Part shown: positions 320-10,641 of the stretch, in pieces
Position numbering within the stretch: position 1 is the first letter of the stretch
Layout: every line of letters begins with the position of its first letter
Assembly: GCA_028291305.1 (NCBI GenBank)
Contig: JAQGII010000075.1
Span: 1-14,127 of the forward strand
Origin: Caulobacteraceae bacterium
GTDB lineage: Bacteria; Pseudomonadota; Alphaproteobacteria; Caulobacterales; Caulobacteraceae
Direction of reading: 5' to 3'
DNA: 14,127 nt
Position numbers and translations under genes: made by a program
The notes under the pieces: generated by a model
Told to the model about the DNA's origin: nothing
Databases searched by the model: none
Seen by the model: only the letters and a program-made list of their open reading frames with translations

Positions 320-847
320 ATGAAGCGTTCCCTGCATCTGATCGCCGTCGCGGCGCTGACGTTCGCCGGACCGGCCATGGCCCAGACCTCCGCCACGGCC
401 ACCGCCTCGGCCACCGCTACGGCCACGGTGCTGACGCCGATCTCCCTGAGCAAGACCACCGATCTGGCCTTCGGCTCGATGGTCCGTCCCGGAAACGGCG
501 CCAACACGATCGCAATCGACGCGACCACCGGCAACCGCACCCTGACCGGCTCGGGCAACGCCTCCCTGGCCACCTCCACGCCCACCCGCGCCGCCTTTTC
601 GGTCGGCGGCGACGGCGCGCAGACCTTTTCCATCACGGTTCCCTCGCCGATCAGCATCACCCGCACCGGCGGGACGGAAACCGTCCCGGTGACGCTCAGC
701 GCTTCGGCCGCCACCGGCCTGCTGAGCGGAAGCGCCGGCAACTCCGGGACCGCGACCTTCGGGGTGGGCGGCTCCCTCCCCCTGAACACGACGGTCGTGG
801 GCGGCAGCTACACGGGCACGTTCAACGTGACCGTGGGCTATAACTAG
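320..847 (+). CDS. DUF4402-type pilin-like subunit
   Basis: This is a 175-residue secreted protein. A Sec signal peptide (MKRSLHLIAV then AALTFAGPAMA) ends at an AMA|Q site near residue 21. The mature N terminus is a run of alternating small residues (TSATATASATATATV, about residues 23-37). This looks like the donor strand that chaperone-usher pilins insert into the neighbouring subunit. The conserved block DLAFGSMVRPGNG follows, and the protein ends in YTGTFNVTVGYN, the terminal strand of the DUF4402-type fold. It has no cysteine, so it lacks the classical pilin disulfide. The ATG has GAAGG 6 nt upstream. It follows the first subunit by 89 nt and precedes a third by 37 nt. Its position before a chaperone and an usher supports a structural pilus subunit. 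The DUF4402 assignment comes from the motif pattern, not from a search. Confidence 0.88.
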   Translation: MKRSLHLIAVAALTFAGPAMAQTSATATASATATATVLTPISLSKTTDLAFGSMVRPGNGANTIAIDATTGNRTLTGSGNASLATSTPTRAAFSVGGDGAQTFSITVPSPISITRTGGTETVPVTLSASAATGLLSGSAGNSGTATFGVGGSLPLNTTVVGGSYTGTFNVTVGYN

Positions 848-884
848 ACGCGTGTAGTTCGACGGGGGATCTGAGGCTCAGCAT

Positions 885-1442
885 ATGCGCGCGGCGATTG
901 CCTTCGGGGTCTGTATCTCGGCGATGCTCGCAACGCATCCGGCCTTCGCCCAGGCAACCTCGACCACCGAGGTGTCCGCCGATATCAGCGCGCCCGCGTC
1001 CATCTCCGTGGTCGACAACCTGAACTTCAACTTCTCGCCGCAGGCGCTCGGCAGCGGCCTGACCATCACCAGCAGCGCAGCCAACGGCGTGAACGCCAGG
1101 ATCCTGGTCGGCGGCGCGCTCGGCTCCGCGGTGTCCGTCTCGGTGCCGACGTCGATCGATGTGGTCAACGCCAGCGGCGGCCAGGTCGTCACGGTGCGGA
1201 CCGTCAGCTCGGCGACCGGCGGCGGCGGCAACACCGCCCCGGCGGCTTCCTCCGCAGGGATCGCAGGGACCGACGGGGCCGGCGCCCCGACCGGAGGCAT
1301 GTTCAACGCACCCGTGCAGGTGGTGGGCGTCCTGGACAACGACATGATGAGCTTCAGCGTCGGCGGCGCGGTGACGAACGCCAACAACCTGGTCCCCGGC
1401 GAGTACCACGGCGTCTTGACCGTGATCGCCCAGTACAATTAG
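885..1442 (+). CDS. DUF4402-type pilin-like subunit, divergent
   Basis: This is a 185-residue secreted protein with a signal peptide ending AFA|Q near residue 22. The mature part begins ATSTTEVSADISAPASISVV, giving a hydrophobic/polar alternating strand comparable to the donor strand of the upstream subunit. It ends PGEYHGVLTVIAQYN, which aligns with the YTGTFNVTVGYN ending of the other subunits. It differs in the middle: a Gly/Ala/Thr-rich loop (about residues 105-135) is followed by VVGVLDNDMMSFSVGGAV. It may be a minor or adaptor subunit rather than the main shaft pilin; that role is inference. A GAGG 8 nt before the ATG supports the start. It lies 37 nt after the preceding subunit gene and about 100 nt before the chaperone gene, so cotranscription is likely. 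Confidence 0.85.
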   Translation: MRAAIAFGVCISAMLATHPAFAQATSTTEVSADISAPASISVVDNLNFNFSPQALGSGLTITSSAANGVNARILVGGALGSAVSVSVPTSIDVVNASGGQVVTVRTVSSATGGGGNTAPAASSAGIAGTDGAGAPTGGMFNAPVQVVGVLDNDMMSFSVGGAVTNANNLVPGEYHGVLTVIAQYN

Positions 1443-1539
1443 CGCCCGGGGCGAAATTCACGTGCGGTTAACGCGAATCTATCGAGACTCCCGCTCCGAA
1501 GCCGCCGACAGTTCCGGGGTGCGAGCGGGGGAGCGACTC

Positions 1540-2538
1540 ATGCAAGGTGGCGCTTTGGTGCGGGCTGCGCGGCGGTTGCCGCGAGCGGTTGGGCGAGTGC
1601 GCCTGGCGATCGGCGTCGTCGCCGCCAGCCTGGTCGTCCTGCTCGGCCCCTCGACCGACAAGGCCGCCGCCCAGGCGCCCGCGGCGGCGGCGCCGGTCAA
1701 CAACGTCAGCGCCAACCTGAACATCTCGCCCAAACGGGTCACATTCGACCGGGCGGACCATTCGGCGACGGTCTACATCTTCAACCAGGGCAACGGTCCG
1801 GGCACCTTCGACATCACCCTGATCGACCGGGTGATGCTGCCGGACGGCGAAATCCTCCCGCTGAGCGAAGCCCAGGCCCGGCCCGAGCTGAAGGCCTACG
1901 TCGACGGCCTGAAATCGGCCCAGAGCATGCTGGTGGTCACGCCGCGCCGGGTCACCCTGGGGGCGGGCAAGGGTCAGACCATCCGCATCCGCGCCGCGGC
2001 CTCCGTCGCGGGCGCCGCGGGCACGCCGATGCCCGGCGAGTACCGCACCCACCTGACCGTGGCCACCATCCCGCCGCGGGACGCCGGCCTGACCGCCGAG
2101 CAGGCCGCCGCCACCGGGCCCCAGCAACTGAGTTTCCAGATCAATTCCGTATTCGGCCTGAGCATTCCCGTGATCCTCCGCGTCGGGCCGCCCGACGTGA
2201 GGGCCACGATCGAAGGCGCCAAGCTGACCACCGAAAACGTCTCGAGCGACGGCGTCGCTCCTCCACGTCCCGCCTCGATGCTGCGTTTCAAGCTGGTCCG
2301 CGGCGGCCCCAACTCCCTGTTCGGCAATATCGAGGTGCGCGGCTCCAAGGATAAGGCCGGGGCCGACCCGCTGGCCGCCGTCCGCGGCCTGGGCGTCTAT
2401 ACCGAGATCGACCACCGCGATATCCAGATGGTCCTTAAGCGTGCGCCGCTCCCTGGCGAGCAACTTGAAATCAGCTTCAAGGATGACGACACGGCCCCGG
2501 GCCGGTTGGTTGCCAAAGCCGTCATCAGCACACAGTAG
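1540..2538 (+). CDS. PapD-like periplasmic pilus chaperone
   Basis: The protein has 332 residues from the ATG at 1540. I chose this start because GGGAG sits 6 nt upstream and the product then begins with a good signal peptide: basic RRLPRAVGRVR, hydrophobic LAIGVVAASLVVLLG, and a cleavage region KAAAQA near residue 45. An in-frame GTG at 1462 would add 26 polar residues and has no such site. The mature protein matches the two-domain PapD fold: SPKRVTFD (R66 in the position of the cleft arginine), VYIFNQGNGPGTFDI, VVTPRRVTLGAGKGQTIRIR, PGEYRTHLTV and FGLSIPVILRVG. A second beta domain follows from about residue 218. It would hold the DUF4402-type subunits in the periplasm and hand them to the usher. 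It is longer than classical chaperones (about 230-250 residues), and the lysine expected before the domain junction is not evident. It overlaps the usher gene. Confidence 0.88.
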   Translation: MQGGALVRAARRLPRAVGRVRLAIGVVAASLVVLLGPSTDKAAAQAPAAAAPVNNVSANLNISPKRVTFDRADHSATVYIFNQGNGPGTFDITLIDRVMLPDGEILPLSEAQARPELKAYVDGLKSAQSMLVVTPRRVTLGAGKGQTIRIRAAASVAGAAGTPMPGEYRTHLTVATIPPRDAGLTAEQAAATGPQQLSFQINSVFGLSIPVILRVGPPDVRATIEGAKLTTENVSSDGVAPPRPASMLRFKLVRGGPNSLFGNIEVRGSKDKAGADPLAAVRGLGVYTEIDHRDIQMVLKRAPLPGEQLEISFKDDDTAPGRLVAKAVISTQ

Positions 2539-5392
2539 AGGGGCGGCGTGGCTAGCCCTGGCGCTGGGGTGTGCGGCGGCGGTGAATTCCGCGGTCGCCC
2601 AACCGACGCCTAGCACATCCACGCCAATTGCGGCCGCGGCTCTGCAAGGCCCGCCGCTAAGGCCCGCGGCCCCGCCCACCGGCATCCCCCCGGTCCCCAA
2701 CACGACCCTTTCCGCCCAGACCGCCGCGATCAAGCGCAACGCCACGGCCGAGGTCCACGAGGAGGACCTGCTGCTGCTGGCCGTCGATCTGGACGGCCTG
2801 TCCGTCACCGACGCCCTGCCGGCCTATGGCATGCAGGACGACCCCCTGCTGCCGATGGGCGAACTGGCCCGGCTGCTGGACCTGAACCTGACCGTTTCGC
2901 CGGTCGAGGGACAGATCATCGGCACCCTGGGCCAGGCCCAGCGCCCCGTGACCATAGACCTGGCCAGCGGCGCCTTCCGCGCCAACGGCAAGGAGATCGA
3001 TCTGTCCCCGGAAGACGTGGCGGTGACCAGCGTCGAGATCTACCTGCGCGCCTCGGCGGTCCAGCGCCTGCTGCCGCTGACCATCAAGGCCAATATCGAA
3101 GAGCTGCAATTGAAGCTGCACGCCCTGGAAAGGTTGCCGATCCAGGCCCGCCTGGACCGGCTGACGCAACTTCGCGACCTGCAGCCCGACGTCGACAACA
3201 ACAACGAACCGGCGCTGCGGATCCCGACGCCTTACCGCCTGATCACCCCGCCCGCCTTCGACATCGACGGCCAGCTGGGCTCCAGCGTCACCGGGCCGCA
3301 CTTCTCGCACAGCTACAATGTGCGGATCGCCAACGATTTCCTCTACACCGGTTTCCAGGGCTTCGTGGGCTCCGACCAGAACGGCGGGATCGCCAGCGCG
3401 CGCGCCACCTTCGAGCGTCACGACGCCAAGGGCGGCCTGCTGGGGCCGATCAACGCCACCAGCGCCAGCGGTGGGGACGTGTTCACCCCCGGCCTGCCCA
3501 TCGGACCGCGCGGCGCGAGCGGCCGCGGCTTCGAGTTTTCGACCGCGCCCCTCGAACAGACCAGCGTGTTCGACCGCATCGACCTGCGCGGGGAGCTGCC
3601 GGTCGGGTACGACGTGGAGCTCTACATCAACGACATCCTGCGCAGCGGCCAGCGCACGCCCGTGCAGGGCCGCTACGAGTTCCTCAACGTGCCCCTGGTG
3701 CGCGGCGTCAACGTCATCCGCATCGTCACCAACGGCCCGCGCGGGGAGCGCACCGAGCAGACCCGCATCGTCAACGTGGGCGGCGGCCAGATGGCCCGGG
3801 GCAAGGTGTCCTTCGCCGCCGGCGTGGTGCAGCAGGACACGGCGCTGATCAATCTGGGCAACGCGCTCACCGATCCCACCCAGCCCGCGCCCGTCGCCAC
3901 TCCCGGCGCCGGCAGCGTGCGGGTCAGCGCCAACGTCGCCTACGGGCTGACCGACAGCGTGACCCTCGTGGCCGGGGCGGCCCTCTTCCCGGTGGCCGAA
4001 GACCCCCTCAAGCCCAGCGCCATCACCGGGCGCGAACTGGTCACGGCCGGCGTGCGCACCTCGATTTTCGGGGCGGCGGTCCAGGTCGACGCCGCCGCCG
4101 ACAGCGCCCGCAGCGGAGCCCTGGCCTTCGGCATCGCCGGCCAGCCGTTCGGCGTGTCCACCCTGGTGCGCCAGGTCTTCTACAGAGGCCCCTTCATCGA
4201 CGAGACGGTGGCGGTCAGCACCACGGAAAAGCCGATCGCCAGCCACACCGAGATCAACACCGATTTCAGTGTGCGGGCGATGCACAACACGCTGCTGCCG
4301 CTGACCCTGCACGGCACCGTCGACGTGTTCGCCGACCGGTCCGTCACCACCACCGCAGGCTTCCGCGCGTCCGCCACCCTGCGCAACATCCTGCTTTCGG
4401 GGGGGTTCGACCTACAGTCCAACGCCGCCCCCGGAGCGGCGATCACGACCAGCACCACCGGGAACCTGTCGGTCTCGACCTATTACAATTTCCAATGGCA
4501 GCTGCGCGCCAGCCTCGACTACGTCCTCACGCCCGGGTTCACCGTCAACGCCCTCAGCGTCACCGCCGACCGGGAGCTCGGCGCCAACCAGGCCCTGCGC
4601 CTGGGCGTCGGCCAGGGCTTCGGCGTCGGCGGGGGCACCAGCTTCCAGGTCGGCGACATCCTGCACACCCGCTACGGCGACATGTCCCTGACCGGCAGCT
4701 TCACCACCCCGACCAACCAATGGCAGCTGGGCCTCACCTTCGCCACGGGGCTGGTGTTCGACCCCTACGCCAAACGCTACCTCCTGACCCGGCCGGGCCC
4801 CGCGTCGAGCGGCAGCATCGCCTTCCAGGCGTTCACCGACGCCAACGGAAACGGCGTCTACGACGACGGCGAGAAGCCGGCCCCCGGCGTCACCATCGAC
4901 GGCGGCGAGCGCAAGGCCGTCACCGACGCCAGGGGCGGCGCCATGATCATCGGCGTGGGCTCGGGCGCCAGCGGCCGCGTGCAGGTGGGGGTGGACGCCA
5001 TCGACGATCCCTACGTGCAGTCCCCGCCGCACACCCTCACCTTCGCTCCGCGCCCCGGGCTGGTGATCAAGTCGCCCTATCCGCTGACCTCGGCCAGCGA
5101 AATCATCACCCATGTGGTGCTGCGTCGGGACGGCAAGCTGCAGGGCCTGTCGGCCGTGCGCATCCGGCTCGTCCCCCGCAAGGGGACTGCGCCGCTGGAG
5201 GCGTCGACCGAATTCGACGGCAGCGCCGGCTTCGACAGCCTGTCGACGGGAACCTACGACTTCCTGCTCGACCCCGAACAGTCCGAGCGGCTGCACATGC
5301 ACATGACGGCGCCGGCCCAGATCGTCGTCCCCCCCGGCGGCGGACCTCTGCCCGACCTGACCGTGGAGGTCGCGTTCGACCAGCCCAAGTAG
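2483..5392 (+). CDS. Outer-membrane pilus usher with extra N- and C-terminal domains
   Basis: This 969-residue protein is inferred to be the assembly pore of the pilus. The start is uncertain. ATG 2483 overlaps the chaperone by 56 nt, has AAGG directly against it, and gives a signal peptide ending NSAVA|Q near residue 39; GTG 2441 would add 14 residues. After a Pro/Ala/Thr linker, residues about 96-200 contain LLPMGELARLLDLNL and an ANGKEIDL block that resembles a copper-amine-oxidase-N-like fold. Beta-rich sequence from about residue 258 fits the barrel. The block DLRGELPVGYDVELYINDIL (367-386) is the classical usher motif before the plug. Near residue 786, DANGNGVYDDGEKPAPGVTI is an SdrB/calcium-loop-like repeat, followed by Ig-like sequence to the C terminus. 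Canonical ushers are about 800-870 residues, so both ends are extended. Translational coupling to the chaperone is likely. Confidence 0.85.
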   Translation: MTTRPRAGWLPKPSSAHSRGAAWLALALGCAAAVNSAVAQPTPSTSTPIAAAALQGPPLRPAAPPTGIPPVPNTTLSAQTAAIKRNATAEVHEEDLLLLAVDLDGLSVTDALPAYGMQDDPLLPMGELARLLDLNLTVSPVEGQIIGTLGQAQRPVTIDLASGAFRANGKEIDLSPEDVAVTSVEIYLRASAVQRLLPLTIKANIEELQLKLHALERLPIQARLDRLTQLRDLQPDVDNNNEPALRIPTPYRLITPPAFDIDGQLGSSVTGPHFSHSYNVRIANDFLYTGFQGFVGSDQNGGIASARATFERHDAKGGLLGPINATSASGGDVFTPGLPIGPRGASGRGFEFSTAPLEQTSVFDRIDLRGELPVGYDVELYINDILRSGQRTPVQGRYEFLNVPLVRGVNVIRIVTNGPRGERTEQTRIVNVGGGQMARGKVSFAAGVVQQDTALINLGNALTDPTQPAPVATPGAGSVRVSANVAYGLTDSVTLVAGAALFPVAEDPLKPSAITGRELVTAGVRTSIFGAAVQVDAAADSARSGALAFGIAGQPFGVSTLVRQVFYRGPFIDETVAVSTTEKPIASHTEINTDFSVRAMHNTLLPLTLHGTVDVFADRSVTTTAGFRASATLRNILLSGGFDLQSNAAPGAAITTSTTGNLSVSTYYNFQWQLRASLDYVLTPGFTVNALSVTADRELGANQALRLGVGQGFGVGGGTSFQVGDILHTRYGDMSLTGSFTTPTNQWQLGLTFATGLVFDPYAKRYLLTRPGPASSGSIAFQAFTDANGNGVYDDGEKPAPGVTIDGGERKAVTDARGGAMIIGVGSGASGRVQVGVDAIDDPYVQSPPHTLTFAPRPGLVIKSPYPLTSASEIITHVVLRRDGKLQGLSAVRIRLVPRKGTAPLEASTEFDGSAGFDSLSTGTYDFLLDPEQSERLHMHMTAPAQIVVPPGGGPLPDLTVEVAFDQPK

Positions 5393-5664
5393 ACCTCGGC
5401 GCTGTTTTCGACACGCCGGACGCCCGGGGCCGGACCTTTCACCCGCCGGGGCGCAGAGCGCGTGGTCTACCAGGACAGTTGATGGTGACTCTTGAGTATG
5501 AGCGAGACCGGCGCGTCCGCAACTCGATGAATTCGCGCCGCGCGTTAGTGGATCTCTTCTTATCAACCCTCGGTTGAATTCCTCGCACAACCGTCGAACG
5601 GCGATGCGGCAGCGACGATTCGTCATCGTGCGCTCGCCGAATCATTCAGGTAGAACTGAAGGCG

Positions 5665-6693
5665 ATGAAAACTTGCCTGCGCTTCCTAGGTCTTGGCGCC
5701 ACCTCGCTGTTGCCTTTGGCGGCTGCGGCGCCCGCCGATGCGGGGCCTCCTGTGGTGACTGTGAAGTCCATTACGGCCAGCGCGCCTGCCCTGGGCACGG
5801 TGATCTCCGGCGCCACCGGCGACACCGTCTTCACCATCTCCAACGCCGGCCTGGTTTCGCGCTCCAGCGGGACGGGCGTCAGGACCACGACCGGCGGCGT
5901 CACCGCGGTGACCGTCACCATCCACTGCGGAGGCGCTATCTGCGCCGGCGGCAACGGCAAGATCCAGAGCACCGGCACGCCGGCCGGCCGCGCCGGGAGC
6001 TTGACCAACTTCACCCCGGTGAGCGGCACGGCCATCCTGGCCGCCATCAGCGGGACCAACCCGGTCACCTTCACCTTTCCGGCAAGCATCCCCAACAACA
6101 CCGACCTGACCTTCACCGTGGGGATGGATTTCCCCATCGACGGCAACGACAACACCAGCGGGACGGTAGCGGCGCTGAGCACCTCGAAGTTCCTGGTTTC
6201 GGTGGCCGAGGGCAGCACTACGCCAGGCTCGACCGGAACCGGGACGGCGACCGCCACCGTCTACCGCGCCCTGGCCATGACCAAGACCGGCGACATGGCG
6301 TTCGGCACGATCCTCAAGCCGCCCGGCGTCGCCGGCTCGGTGACCCTCGGCAACACCGGCGGCGCCGTCACGGTGTCCGGGGCCGGCTATGGCAAGATGT
6401 CGACGGGCCGGCCGTCCACCACGCCGTCCAGCGCCCAGTTCAAGATCAGCGGCGAGGCCGCCAGGGTCTATACCCTCAATGTGCCGAGCACCTTCGTGAT
6501 GGCGGGCACGGGCACCGACAGCCTGACCGTGAGCCTCTCGCCGACCGTTGCGAGCGGGCCCGCCACCTTCAGCGGAAGCGCGGGGGCGGCCTCGACCCTG
6601 ACCCTGGGCGTCGGCGGCTCGTTCAGCGTGGGCGCGGCGACCGGCTACGGGATCTACACCGGCACCTTCGCGGTCACCGCCACCTACAACTGA
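5665..6693 (+). CDS. Two-domain DUF4402-type protein, candidate pilus tip adhesin
   Basis: This 342-residue secreted protein has a signal peptide (LRFLGLGATSLLPLAAAAPADA|G, cut near residue 26). Residues about 30-185 form a first beta-rich domain with one close cysteine pair, Cys88 and Cys93 (HCGGAIC), unlike the cysteine-free subunit at 320-847. A Gly/Ser/Thr linker (GSTTPGSTGTG) leads to a second domain. It starts TATATVYRALAMTKTGDMAFG, which aligns with TATATVLTPISLSKTTDLAFG of that subunit, and ends YTGTFAVTATYN. The layout (unique domain, linker, pilin domain, last gene after the usher) matches tip adhesins of other chaperone-usher systems. The first domain may itself be a divergent DUF4402 copy. 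The ligand is unknown. The ATG has GAAGG only 2 nt upstream, a tight spacing. A 272-nt gap after the usher leaves room for its own promoter. Confidence 0.83.
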   Translation: MKTCLRFLGLGATSLLPLAAAAPADAGPPVVTVKSITASAPALGTVISGATGDTVFTISNAGLVSRSSGTGVRTTTGGVTAVTVTIHCGGAICAGGNGKIQSTGTPAGRAGSLTNFTPVSGTAILAAISGTNPVTFTFPASIPNNTDLTFTVGMDFPIDGNDNTSGTVAALSTSKFLVSVAEGSTTPGSTGTGTATATVYRALAMTKTGDMAFGTILKPPGVAGSVTLGNTGGAVTVSGAGYGKMSTGRPSTTPSSAQFKISGEAARVYTLNVPSTFVMAGTGTDSLTVSLSPTVASGPATFSGSAGAASTLTLGVGGSFSVGAATGYGIYTGTFAVTATYN

Positions 6694-6746: not shown

Positions 6747-6821
6747 TGGTGGACGCGACAGGGATTGAACCTGTGACCCCCTCGATGTCAACGAGGTGCT
6801 CTCCCGCTGAGCTACGCGTCC
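6747..6821 (-). tRNA. tRNA-Val (anticodon GAC)
   Basis: Read on the - strand, the sequence folds as a complete 75-nt tRNA. The acceptor stem GGACGCG pairs with CGCGTCC. The D arm is GCTC-AGCGGGA-GAGC. The anticodon stem CCTCG/CGAGG carries the loop TTGACAT, with anticodon GAC. The T arm is ACAGG-TTCAATC-CCTGT. The discriminator A and CCA end are encoded in the DNA (6747-6750). A GAC anticodon reads GUC and GUU valine codons. It stands alone, 80 nt downstream of cpdR on the same strand and convergent with the pilus cluster. Confidence 0.97.
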
Positions 6822-6900: not shown

Positions 6901-7263
6901 CTAGGCCGCCGCCATCATCCGCTCGACCTCGGCCACGATCTCGCGCAGGTGGATGGGCTTGGACAGCACCTTGGCGCCCTGGGGGGCGCTTTCCTTGGCG
7001 GCCAGGGCCACCGCGGCGAAACCGGTGATGAACATGATGCGCAGCTCGGGCTGAACGGCGGCGGCCTGGCGGGCCACCTCGATGCCGTCGGCGCCGGGCA
7101 TGACGATGTCGGTCAGCAGCAGGTCCCAGCGCGCTTCGGGCAGGGCCTCCAGCGCCTCCTCGCCGTCGGCGCAGGCGCGGACCTCGTAGCCCGCGCGCTC
7201 GAGCGCGCGGGTCAGGAAGCCGCGCAGGGAATCATCGTCTTCGGCCAGCAGGATTCGGGTCAT
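6901..7263 (-). CDS. cpdR: Single-domain response regulator CpdR
   Basis: This 120-residue stand-alone receiver starts MTRILLAEDDDSLRGFL. It carries the acidic pair Asp9/Asp10, the phosphoacceptor Asp52 in LLLTDIVMPG, Thr80 in MFITGF, and Lys102 in LSKP. No output domain follows. The stretch IMFITGFAAVAL, the overall length and the C terminus EVERMMAAA are characteristic of CpdR. In Caulobacter, unphosphorylated CpdR acts as an adaptor that localises and primes ClpXP to degrade cell-cycle regulators, and its phosphorylation through the CckA-ChpT relay turns this off. The Ala-Ala tail seen here is the type of C-terminal degron by which CpdR itself is recognised by ClpXP. ATG 7263 is preferred over an in-frame TTG at 7278. 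It is divergent from the amidohydrolase gene, with 162 nt between them. Confidence 0.92.
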   Translation of the reverse strand: MTRILLAEDDDSLRGFLTRALERAGYEVRACADGEEALEALPEARWDLLLTDIVMPGADGIEVARQAAAVQPELRIMFITGFAAVALAAKESAPQGAKVLSKPIHLREIVAEVERMMAAA

Positions 7264-7339
7264 GGTCTCGATCAGCAACGCTCAAGCCGGCGCAGTGCGC
7301 GACTCGGTGAACAGGCCCGCCGATCTTAGCCGCCCAGGA

Positions 7340-7425: not shown

Positions 7426-8349
7426 ATGACGGCATGGGAAGGCTTGTCCGGGCCAGAGGCGGATCTGGCGGCGCTGTCGCCGGGCGGCGAGGAGACGGTC
7501 CATGGACCGCCGTTCGCGCTGGTTCGCGCCCTGGGCATCCCCTCGCCCTTCGTGTTCGCCTCGCCCCACTCGGGCCGCGAATATCCCGCCGAACTGATGG
7601 ACGCCGCGGCGCTGGACGGCGCCGCCATCCGCCGCTCCGAGGACGCCTTCGTCGACGAACTGATCGGATCGGCGCCGGACAGCGGAGTGACCCTGCTCAC
7701 CGCCCGCTATGCGCGCGCCTATATCGACGTGAACCGGGAAGCCTATGAGCTGGACCCGGCCATGTTCGAGGATGAATTGCCGGCCTTCGCCCGCGCCCGC
7801 ACCGCACGGGTGGCCGCCGGGCTCGGCTCGATCGCCCGGGTGGTGGGCGACGGCCAGGAGATCTACCGCCGCAAGCTAACCTTCGAGGAGGCGCGGCGGC
7901 GCATCGAGGCGGTGCACCGGCCCTACCACGTGGCCCTGGCCGGCCTGCTGGAGGAGACCCGCGCCCTGCACGGCCGCGCGGCCCTGATCGACTGGCATTC
8001 CATGCCCTCGGCGGCCTCGGGCGACCCGGCCTATGGGCGCAAGGGGTGCGACATGGTGCTGGGCGACCGGTTCGGTTCGGCCTGCGCGCCGGGGCTGACG
8101 CGGCTGGTGGAGCGGGAGCTGGAGGCGATGGGTTACCGGGTGGCGCGCAACGCCCCCTATGCCGGCGGCTACACCACCGAATTCTACGGCCGCCCCGCCG
8201 AAGGCCTGCACGCCCTGCAGATCGAGATCAACCGCGGGGTCTATCTGGACGAGGCGGCGTTGAAGCCCAACGCCGGCTTTGGCCGCCTGAAGCACGATCT
8301 GGACCGGCTGTGCGCGACCCTGGCGCGCGACTGGCGCAAGGCTTTCTAA
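7426..8349 (+). CDS. N-formylglutamate amidohydrolase family protein
   Basis: This is a 307-residue cytosolic protein of the FGase family, zinc-dependent enzymes that remove the formyl group from N-formyl-L-glutamate or related N-acyl amino acids. Visible family motifs in order are FASPHSGREYP (44-54, metal-site histidine), AYIDVNREAYELDP (99-111), ALIDWHSMPS (186-195), GDRFG (213-217), NAPYAGGYTTEFYGRP (242-257) and QIEINRGVYLDE (265-276). The length is normal. No histidine-degradation genes lie nearby, so I do not call it hutG; it may act on another formylated or acylated substrate. The ATG lacks a clear ribosome binding site. Its neighbours are cpdR, divergent, and the candidate small RNA, convergent, 61 nt beyond its stop. 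Confidence 0.88.
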   Translation: MTAWEGLSGPEADLAALSPGGEETVHGPPFALVRALGIPSPFVFASPHSGREYPAELMDAAALDGAAIRRSEDAFVDELIGSAPDSGVTLLTARYARAYIDVNREAYELDPAMFEDELPAFARARTARVAAGLGSIARVVGDGQEIYRRKLTFEEARRRIEAVHRPYHVALAGLLEETRALHGRAALIDWHSMPSAASGDPAYGRKGCDMVLGDRFGSACAPGLTRLVERELEAMGYRVARNAPYAGGYTTEFYGRPAEGLHALQIEINRGVYLDEAALKPNAGFGRLKHDLDRLCATLARDWRKAF

Positions 8350-8410
8350 AGTGGCGGAGGGAGGAGCGCGAAGCCTTGGACCGCCTCGATTTCCGCCCTG
8401 CGCTCAGCGC

Positions 8411-8438
8411 AAAAAAAAGCCGCGCCAGACGGCGCGGC
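8411..8438 (-). terminator. Rho-independent terminator of the small RNA
   Basis: On the - strand, GCCGCGCC and GGCGCGGC pair as an 8-bp GC stem with a 4-nt loop (GTCT), followed directly by eight T (8411-8418). It is oriented to stop leftward transcription. No accepted leftward protein gene precedes it, so it fits the small RNA gene immediately upstream. On the + strand there is no U tract after the stem. Confidence 0.88.
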
Positions 8439-8494
8439 AAAGTCAATAGGGAGGAAACGCCCAGGAAGGGCAGCGGCGTCAGCGACGCCGCACA
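8411..8494 (-). ncRNA. Candidate trans-acting small RNA with anti-Shine-Dalgarno-like loop
   Basis: An RNA of about 84 nt is predicted on the - strand, from a start near 8493-8496 to the U tract at 8411. It has three modules. The first is a hairpin GCGGCGTC-GCT-GACGCCGC (8473-8491). The second is a small hairpin GCCC-TTCCT-GGGC (8459-8471). Then comes an unpaired stretch, GTTTCCTCCCTATTGACTTT (8439-8458), before the terminator hairpin. The exposed UUUCCUCCC is complementary to Shine-Dalgarno sequences. Similar CU-rich single-stranded motifs are known in alphaproteobacterial regulatory RNAs that block translation of many mRNAs. It has its own promoter and lies between two protein genes on the other strand. 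I do not recognise it as a named family. Targets and Hfq dependence are unknown. The 5' end is an estimate from the promoter position. Confidence 0.68.
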
Positions 8495-8500
8495 ACGAGG

Positions 8501-8529
8501 TTTATAGAGTGCATCGCAGCACCGGGCAA
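8501..8529 (-). promoter_or_regulatory. Promoter of the small RNA
   Basis: On the - strand, TTGCCC (8524-8529) and TATAAA (8501-8506) are separated by exactly 17 nt. The -10 matches 5 of 6 and the -35 matches 4 of 6 general consensus bases. A transcription start near 8493-8496 follows. An AT-rich TTTTTC/GAAAAA inverted repeat (8543-8559) lies just upstream, where an UP element would be. Confidence 0.6.
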
Positions 8530-8637
8530 CAGCCCAGTGCGATTTTTCGGGGTGAAAAACTGTCGCAGGTCCGGAAACCCCTGTTACTCCAATGACAAAA
8601 CAGGCGTTGCAGGCGGGCAACAGCATATTGCATCGCA
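8510..8637. repeat. Two swapped copies of a two-part motif upstream of the small RNA
   Basis: GGGCAACAGC occurs at 8524-8533 and 8615-8624. TGCATCGCA occurs at 8510-8518 and 8629-8637. In the first module TGCATCGCA precedes GGGCAACAGC; in the second the order is reversed. The first module overlaps the -35 and spacer of the small RNA promoter. A related inverted half (TGCGAT, 8538-8543) faces the first ATCGCA (8513-8518). Repetition in this position suggests a regulator binding region, but the protein is unknown. Confidence 0.4.
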
Positions 8638-8666
8638 CAATAGCCCTCGCTTGATACTTTAAAACC

Positions 8667-8681
8667 CCTTATTAAATAAGG
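8667..8681. promoter_or_regulatory. 15-bp perfect palindrome upstream of typA
   Basis: CCTTATT-A-AATAAGG is a perfect palindrome with a single central base, in an AT-rich patch (about 8650-8682) of an otherwise GC-rich genome. It lies 125 nt before the typA start. It could be an operator or part of the typA promoter region (TTGATA at 8651-8656 lies just upstream). The remainder of 8560-8805 shows no gene that I can support. Confidence 0.35.
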
Positions 8682-8738
8682 CCCGAGACGTCATCGCTTT
8701 GCAGCGTGACATATCAACATGTAGGCCGGGGGTGGCGT

Positions 8739-8755
8739 CGCGAGCCTCCCTCGCG
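8739..8755 (+). other. Small hairpin in the typA leader
   Basis: CGCGAG (8739-8744) and CTCGCG (8750-8755) pair as a 6-bp stem with a CCTCC loop, 50 nt before the typA start codon. No Shine-Dalgarno sequence is visible before that ATG (upstream bases TTCGCACTCCT). The loop bases would be complementary to purine-rich ribosome binding sequences. The role is unknown. Confidence 0.25.
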
Positions 8756-8805
8756 TACAAGGCCCGCGCCTTCCTCCCCCGAAATTTTTTCTGGTTCGCA
8801 CTCCT

Positions 8806-10641
8806 ATGGCCCTGCGCAATATCGCCATCATCGCCCACGTCGATCACGGCAAGACCACCTTGGTGGACCAACTGCTCGCTCAGTCGGGCATTTTCCGAGC
8901 CAACGAGGCCCACGTCGAGCGGGCCATGGACTCCAATGACCAGGAGCGCGAGCGGGGCATCACCATCCTGGCCAAGTGCACCTCGGTCATGTGGCACGGC
9001 AAGGCGGGCGACACCCGCATCAACATCATCGACACCCCCGGCCACGCCGACTTCGGCGGCGAGGTGGAGCGCATCCTGGGCATGGTCGACGGCTGCCTGC
9101 TGTTGGTGGACGCCGAAGAGGGCGTCATGCCCCAGACCAAGTTCGTGCTGGGCAAGGCGTTGAAGCTGGGCCTGCGCCCGATCGTGGTGCTGAACAAGGT
9201 CGACCGGCCGCACGCCGATCCCGACAAGGTGCTCAACGACGCCTTCGACCTGTTCGCCGCGATGGGCGCGGACGACGACCAGCTCGACTTCCCCCACCTG
9301 TACGCCTCGGGCAAGCAGGGCTGGGCGGTGGTCAACATGGGCGACCCGCAGGAAAGCCTGGCGCCGATCTTCGACAAGATCGTCGAGCATGTGCCCGCCC
9401 CCCAGGCCGAGCAGCGCATGGACGAGCCGGCCCAGATCCTGGCCGTGCTGATCGAAAACGACCCCTTCCTCGGCCGCCTGCTGACCGGCCGCGTCGAGGC
9501 CGGCCGCTTCACCCCCGGCCAGGCCATCCACGCCCTGTCGCGCGACGGCAAGGAGATCGAGAAGGGCCGGGTCACCAAGATCCTCGCCTTCCGCGGCCTG
9601 AAGCGCCAGCCGATCGACGTGGCCGAAGCGGGCGACATCGTCGCCATCGCCGGCCTGTCCAAGGCCACCGTGGCCGACACCCTGTGCGCCCAGGAAGTGA
9701 CCGAGGCCCTGCCGGCCCAGCCGATCGATCCGCCGACCATCTCCATGACCGTGTCGGTCAACGACAGCCCCCTGGCCGGCAAGGACGGCGACAAGGTGCA
9801 GTCGCGGGTCATCCGCGAGCGCCTGCTACGCGAAGCCGAAAGCAACGTCGCCATCAAGGTGTCCGAAACCGCCGAGAAGGACGCCTATGAAGTCGCCGGC
9901 CGCGGCGAACTGCAGCTGGGCGTGCTGATCGAGAACATGCGCCGCGAAGGCTTCGAGGTGTCGATCTCGCGACCGCGCGTGGTGTTCCGCAACGACGAGG
10001 AGACCGGCGCCCGCATGGAGCCTATCGAAGACGTCGTGATCGACGTCGACGACGACTACACCGGCGTGGTCATCGACAAGCTGTCGCAGCGCAAGGCCGA
10101 GCTGAAGGACATGCGTCCCTCCGGCGCCGGCAAGACCCGCATCACCCTGCAGTCGCCGTCGCGTTCGCTGATCGGCTACCAGGGCGAGTTCCTCACCGAC
10201 ACCCGCGGCTCGGGCGTGCTGAACCGCGTGTTCTCGCACTACGAGCCCTACAAGGGCGCCATCGAGGGCCGCCGCAACGGCGTGCTGGTGTCCAACTGCG
10301 ACGGGGAAACGGCGTCGTTCGCGCTGTGGAACCTGGAAGACCGCGGCGTGATGTTCGTGGGCGCCAACGAGGCCTGCTACCAGGGCATGATCATCGGCGA
10401 GAACTCGCGCTGGGACGACCTCGACGTCAACCCGATGAAGGCCAAGCAGCTGACCAACGTGCGCGCCTCCGGCAAGGACGAGGCCATCCGCCTGACCCCG
10501 CCGCGCCGCCCGACCCTGGAACAGGCGATCGCCTATATCGGCGAGGACGAACTGGTCGAGGTCACCCCCAAGGCGATCCGCCTGCGCAAGCGCGTGCTGA
10601 ACCCTTCGTTCCGCAAGAAGCGCATCCGCGAAGACGCGTAA
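8806..10641 (+). CDS. typA: Translational GTPase TypA/BipA
   Basis: This is a 611-residue ribosome-associated GTPase of the EF-G-like superfamily, involved in stress adaptation and large-subunit assembly in other bacteria. All GTPase motifs are visible: G1 AHVDHGKTT (10-18), G2 RGITI (50-54), G3 DTPGH (76-80), G4 NKVD (130-133) and G5 SGK (168-170). The EF-Tu-like domain 2 follows (LIENDPFLGRLLTGRVEAG), then the EF-G-like domains with GRGELQLGVLIENMRREG and the TypA-specific C-terminal domain, including TRGSGVLNRVFSHYEPYKG. The length is normal and the C terminus (NPSFRKKRIREDA) is complete. The ATG has no evident ribosome binding site. A strong hairpin follows the stop codon, so it is probably transcribed alone. 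Confidence 0.97.
   Translation: MALRNIAIIAHVDHGKTTLVDQLLAQSGIFRANEAHVERAMDSNDQERERGITILAKCTSVMWHGKAGDTRINIIDTPGHADFGGEVERILGMVDGCLLLVDAEEGVMPQTKFVLGKALKLGLRPIVVLNKVDRPHADPDKVLNDAFDLFAAMGADDDQLDFPHLYASGKQGWAVVNMGDPQESLAPIFDKIVEHVPAPQAEQRMDEPAQILAVLIENDPFLGRLLTGRVEAGRFTPGQAIHALSRDGKEIEKGRVTKILAFRGLKRQPIDVAEAGDIVAIAGLSKATVADTLCAQEVTEALPAQPIDPPTISMTVSVNDSPLAGKDGDKVQSRVIRERLLREAESNVAIKVSETAEKDAYEVAGRGELQLGVLIENMRREGFEVSISRPRVVFRNDEETGARMEPIEDVVIDVDDDYTGVVIDKLSQRKAELKDMRPSGAGKTRITLQSPSRSLIGYQGEFLTDTRGSGVLNRVFSHYEPYKGAIEGRRNGVLVSNCDGETASFALWNLEDRGVMFVGANEACYQGMIIGENSRWDDLDVNPMKAKQLTNVRASGKDEAIRLTPPRRPTLEQAIAYIGEDELVEVTPKAIRLRKRVLNPSFRKKRIREDA

Follow-up and report, generated by a model that had tools for sequence, protein, structure and literature searches.

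A SisA-type alphaR8 small RNA gene between an N-formylglutamate amidohydrolase gene and typA in a Caulobacteraceae bacterium, with candidate PhaR-type palindromes at its promoter

The window analyzed in this study is the whole stretch of 14,127 nucleotides at positions 1 to 14,127 of contig JAQGII010000075.1 from a Caulobacteraceae bacterium. A predicted small RNA (sRNA) gene lies on its - strand at 8411..8494, flanked by a convergent gene for N-formylglutamate amidohydrolase (FGase; 7426..8349, + strand; PF05013, 248.1 bits, E 1.4e-73) and a divergent typA/bipA gene (8806..10641, + strand; BipA_C PF21018 plus GTPase domains). Elsewhere, the window contains a response regulator matching CpdR (6904-7278, - strand; NF046022, 191.8 bits, cut-off 180) and a tRNA-Val at 6747-6821. 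The + strand from 320 to 6693 encodes secreted repeat-like proteins as well as chaperone-like and large usher-like frames, which, judging from their translations, we take to resemble a chaperone-usher cluster.

The promoter of the sRNA (8501..8529, - strand), recognized from its sequence and from the upstream stretches of relatives, reads TTGCCC-N17-TATAAA, with the -35 element at 8529-8524, a 17-nt spacer, and the -10 element at 8506-8501. A simple promoter scan over 8300-8900 listed none; this promoter is missed because the scan requires T as the final base of the -10 box, where the window has A. With its 5' end placed from the -10 box and its 3' end from the U run, the transcript is predicted to be approximately 84 nt long, a length resting on the inferred 5' start. 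It would begin with an 8-bp hairpin (8473..8491), continue through a second hairpin of the form UGCCC-UUCCU-GGGCG (8458..8472) and a single-stranded anti-Shine-Dalgarno seed, UUUCCUCCCU (8448..8457; from fold, alignment, and count), and end in an intrinsic terminator (8411..8438) composed of an 8-bp all-GC stem (8438-8419) and eight T residues (8418-8411). The initial annotation had outlined a leftward unit at 8529-8411 in which a promoter precedes two hairpins, the exposed UUUCCUCCCU, and a terminator with an 8-bp stem and eight U, and all of these elements are present. The 92-nt segment 8495-8404 folds at -42.1 kcal/mol (z = -4.6), which was equaled by none of 200 shuffles, while cutting into the first hairpin (8487-8404) leaves a z of -2.3 that 5 of 200 shuffles equal. 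The stretch TTTCCTCCCT occurs once in the window, where 0.01 occurrences are expected.

The seed, hairpins, and terminator recur among relatives, as seen in an alignment of 27 sequences that omitted four linked copies with a differing 5' region (L017, L043, L030, and L031) and one near copy (L053) and additionally took in L021, L026, and L027; these relatives are non-independent samples. Two-sided changes were found at six of the eight pairs in both the 5' hairpin and the terminator stem. The second hairpin is nearly constant, showing no two-sided change with 91.9% of its cells paired; for the 5' hairpin the paired share is just 71.8%, apparently lowered in part by the misalignment of a few rows in that region. 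Covariation over the whole structure scored 0.272 versus 0.140 for shuffled alignments and 0.080-0.139 for slid controls. The longest invariant run across the 27 sequences is GUUUCCUCCC, which bears on the reading that the element merely terminates antisense transcription or readthrough arriving from typA and involves no regulatory RNA. The terminator does separate the sRNA from the convergent FGase gene, as that reading would have it, yet a terminator would need no seed, and we consider this explanation very improbable.

The RNA matches the Rfam covariance model RF00519 (suhB/MmgR, alphaR8) over its entire length (model positions 1-77 of 77; 8404-8478) with 63.7 bits against a cut-off of 41. 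Weak scores at the same place were obtained for GcvB (27.9, cut-off 42), SorX (23.2, cut-off 46.6), and SorY (23.5, cut-off 111). As described in the available text of PMC12559287, the hallmark of alphaR8 RNAs is the same 10-mer, UUUCCUCCCU, following a weak hairpin; in most species the alphaR8 gene has an FGase gene as its neighbor, and Caulobacter crescentus contains four members, SisA-D, of which the FGase-linked one is SisA. The 10-mer of the window is identical to the published one, and four RF00519 members were found over the cut-off in the window's own genome. The combination of the RF00519 match, the FGase neighbor, and the four copies is therefore most simply explained if the gene is the SisA ortholog. 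Judged by its sequence, the gene is a new member of the known alphaR8 family and the local SisA, and it very probably acts as SisA does, using its anti-Shine-Dalgarno 10-mer to pair with ribosome binding sites, a function assigned by orthology.

The initial annotation had considered the RNA undescribed and of no known family, and had proposed an Infernal search against Rfam as a check; that search, now run, places it above the cut-off of a known family whose usual neighbor is the FGase gene (PMC12559287, as far as its text is available). An undescribed family converging on an anti-Shine-Dalgarno motif could still be argued from the 5' hairpin (8491-8473), which lies largely outside a match that starts at 8478, and from the weak scores that GcvB, SorX, and SorY also receive. 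However, RF00519 is matched end to end while those three families stay below their cut-offs, and the FGase neighbor and the four copies agree with the published family, so this possibility is exceedingly slight, the Rfam match together with the neighboring gene having effectively disproved it. The companion suggestion, that the exposed motif resembles those with which regulatory RNAs occlude ribosome binding sites, agrees with the alphaR8 10-mer and with a family that silences carbon-use genes in this way. What was taken for an unknown sRNA becomes a member of a family with a worked-out mechanism, and predictions made for Caulobacter and Sinorhizobium can be transferred to it.

The RF00519 family was present in 37 of the 40 genomes searched, including the window's own, and was not found in G026, G030, or G038. 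The 33 family loci that were fetched (the four copies of the own genome and the best copy from 29 of the 36 other matching genomes) included 22 with an FGase match, among them the window's own, and 10 with a TypA match within approximately 1.5 kb. A TypA-based search found 74 loci, five of them beginning inside typA. Rfam identified the sRNA at nine of the 12 Caulobacteraceae-like typA loci with sufficient upstream DNA and at none of eight others tested in the same way; the three remaining Caulobacteraceae-like loci had neither an sRNA nor an FGase match. The sequence TTCCTCCCT was found in nine of the 74 typA loci, the same nine that were positive by Rfam, of which L039, L041, and L109 correspond to L023, L017, and L009. 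The initial annotation had held that a lack of conservation beside typA would count against the gene, and at these nine loci the gene is retained.

In the published work available to us, SisA acts with Hfq by pairing its 10-mer to leader sequences and repressing the targets, with eight of ten reporters repressed and compensatory mutations in support (PMC12559287), and MmgR of Sinorhizobium limits polyhydroxybutyrate (PHB) and phasins (PMC8401924). By analogy with these relatives, we infer that the window's sRNA is transcribed, binds Hfq, and represses targets. Transcription would proceed leftward out of the gap between typA and the FGase gene and stop at the RNA's own terminator; the unpaired UUUCCUCCCU would then bind ribosome binding sites of the GGGAGGAA type, with the help of Hfq by analogy, and such pairing may lower the translation of carbon-use genes. 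The pattern GGGAGGAA-N2-9-ATG returned 15 rows in the own genome versus two for the backward control; once three rows corresponding to sRNA copies and one duplicate entry are set aside, 11 target sites remain. A Pfam search of ten of the 11 target reading frames (a 16-residue frame was left out) assigned a family to eight: a TonB receptor plug, two PQQ dehydrogenases, two cytochromes c, an HbpS-like haem-degrading protein, a 2-oxoacid dehydrogenase acyltransferase (E2), and a helix-turn-helix protein. In 39 of the 40 genomes, among them G026 and G030, which have no sRNA, the start pattern outnumbered its backward control; in G038 the two were equal. An excess that is also seen in genomes without the sRNA, as for ribosome binding sites generally, is therefore no proof of targeting by itself.

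Predicted pairing is modest for the phasin leader (-9.2) and negligible for the typA leader (-2.5). Besides the four sRNA copies, the only exact occurrence of AGGGAGGAAA in the own assembly is at G000:C337:1989-1998 (L110), the ribosome binding site of the E2 gene, with a duplex of -16.9 kcal/mol. This best target match was considered as a conserved direct target and rejected: the E2 survey covered 30 loci (the own locus, 27 with a start, and two without), and the full match was absent from all 27 starts of relatives, including that of the same-genus genome G002 (CAGGAGGACACGCG). The E2 gene is therefore at best a species-level lead.

The promoter of the sRNA was compared with operators of the PHB-sensing regulator PhaR. 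The available portions of PMC12542648 give a PhaR motif for Sinorhizobium and place the mmgR promoter among those efficiently bound; mmgR is repressed by PhaR (PMC12542648, PMC8401924), and the PhaR (AniA) dyad of mmgR sits between its -35 and -10 elements (PMC8401924). A matrix was built from 15 efficiently bound Sinorhizobium sites in the available part of PMC12542648, with mmgR excluded. Its two best positions in the whole window are a distal palindrome at 8623..8643 (no strand assigned; core TGCATCGCA, 8629-8637), which has the top score of 14.7, and a proximal palindrome at 8504..8524 (- strand; core TGCGATGCA, 8518-8510), which scores a weak 8.9 and is positioned between the -35 and -10 of the sRNA promoter, as for mmgR. 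Within the genus the promoter palindromes score low (8.9, 9.7, and 11.4) compared with 20.5 for the mmgR site of S. meliloti. In shuffles of the sRNA upstream stretch, a score of 8.9 was reached in one of 100 and the core alone appeared in 19 of 100; across the window the core alone occurs 14 times versus 22 expected.

A palindrome preceding a TATA-like box recurs upstream of many FGase-linked copies. Of the 29 linked loci, 27 have the core YGCRNYGCR in the 110 nt preceding the seed, where shuffles predict 3.3; the two exceptions are L014 and L019. The core lies 51-65 nt before the seed, the position seen in the window, in 22 of the 29 and elsewhere in L016, L017, L018, L029, and L043. The set of 29 omits L039, L041, and L109 as copies of L023, L017, and L009, and retains the near-identical pairs L042/L053, L030/L031, and L017/L043. 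Ten other sRNA copies contained the core in five cases (1.5 expected). Among the remaining copies of the own genome, L003 (G000:C155) has a strong PhaR-type site upstream (20.8), and no site scoring at least 8 was present within 400 nt of L001 or L004.

Phasin loci served as controls for the matrix. Those of the genomes studied contained a match of at least 15 in 26 of 30 cases (anywhere in approximately 3.3 kb), versus about 7 of 30 predicted from a background of 37 matches in 472,816 bases, and the phasin loci of 19 other genomes, picked for having a typA site, reached at least 12 in 20 of 20; the matrix therefore marks PhaR-type operators in these lineages. PhaR itself (PF07879) was identified in 37 of the 40 genomes, including both same-genus genomes, and was missing from G026, G038, and the own assembly (G000), which is 79% complete. 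Both G026 and G038 lack the sRNA as well, while G030 has PhaR and no sRNA.

By the published precedent of mmgR, PhaR would hold the sRNA down until storage granules titrate it off. We lean toward this reading of the candidate spacer palindrome, in which PhaR represses the sRNA until PHB granules draw the regulator away, and consider the PhaR-type sites a plausible extension of the Sinorhizobium circuit on the basis of their sequence. It is also possible, though on the doubtful side, that the palindromes are operators of some different regulator or have no function, and that the sRNA is nearly constitutive, with a sponge RNA (for example CrfA) governing its activity. This explanation concerns only the promoter and is compatible with the SisA identity. 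In Caulobacter, SisA has been called nearly constitutive and is sponged by CrfA (PMC12559287, in its available text); in addition, the site is weak in this genus, the 79%-complete own assembly yielded no phaR match, and counts of a stricter palindrome in this genome give no clear enrichment (seven occurrences, including those on the phasin contig and at the distal site, versus five in the backward control). However, the strong matches of the Sinorhizobium matrix to phasin loci in both sets argue against it. The SisA paper does not use the word PhaR in its main text (PMC12559287), and PhaR control of SisA was not seen among the literature matches listed. Should the palindromes prove to be PhaR operators, PHB storage and the sRNA would be linked in Caulobacterales as well, and typA may join the circuit.

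The distal site bears on typA. A site scoring at least 8 is located at -176 to -197 from the seed in 13 of 16 typA-linked loci, and one at about -185 is found in L007, L021, and L027, where no TypA match is present in flanks of approximately 1.5 kb; the distal site may therefore serve the sRNA, typA, or both. Outside Caulobacteraceae, a score of at least 12 was observed no more than 250 nt upstream of typA in 25 of 50 loci, versus averages of 0.2 for shuffles (maximum 2) and 0.2 for permuted matrices (maximum 1) and 6 of 248 control windows from the same loci. Repeating the analysis with all 57 other typA loci having 250 nt upstream gave 31 with a site; one locus of the 57 with a Verrucomicrobia title had no PhaR-type site. 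Among L045-L105, the typA loci of Sphingomonadales mostly carry their PhaR-type palindromes around -58 to -74. Such a site is missing from L036, L038, and L047, three typA loci of Caulobacteraceae that lack the sRNA. Since PhaR-type sites recur before typA (in Sphingomonadales, Parvularculaceae, and others), typA may be an unrecognized PhaR target. In the available part of the Sinorhizobium study, the proteome table shows little change in TypA (-0.52 and -0.34, in two columns), in the direction that the authors call PhaR activation rather than repression, and the available part of Table 3 lists no typA site (PMC12542648). It is a tentative proposal, somewhat short of an even prospect, that the gap between typA and sisA is a shared control region in which PHB-titrated PhaR sets both the sRNA and the translation GTPase TypA, with typA an unrecognized target across Alphaproteobacteria. 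If true, carbon storage would be tied to ribosome assembly via typA throughout this class.

Compared to known systems, the locus is closest to SisA of C. crescentus (CCNA_R0014), with which it shares the alphaR8 family, the 10-mer, the terminator, a weak hairpin before the seed, the FGase neighbor, and the number of four copies (PMC12559287, available text). Going by the published description of SisA, it differs in having typA as its divergent neighbor and a PhaR-type palindrome at its promoter; the word typA is absent from the main text of that paper (PMC12559287). The MmgR RNA of S. meliloti (RF00519) likewise agrees in family, seed, and a dyad between -35 and -10 (PMC12542648 and PMC8401924, available portions). 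In contrast, MmgR is single in S. meliloti versus four copies here (PMC12559287, as available), and the window's PhaR-type promoter site is weaker (8.9 versus 20.5) and accompanied by a second site approximately 119 bp away. The SorX and SorY RNAs (RF02784, RF02651) are more distant, aligning in part through a CCUCCCU stretch and the terminator with scores far under their cut-offs.
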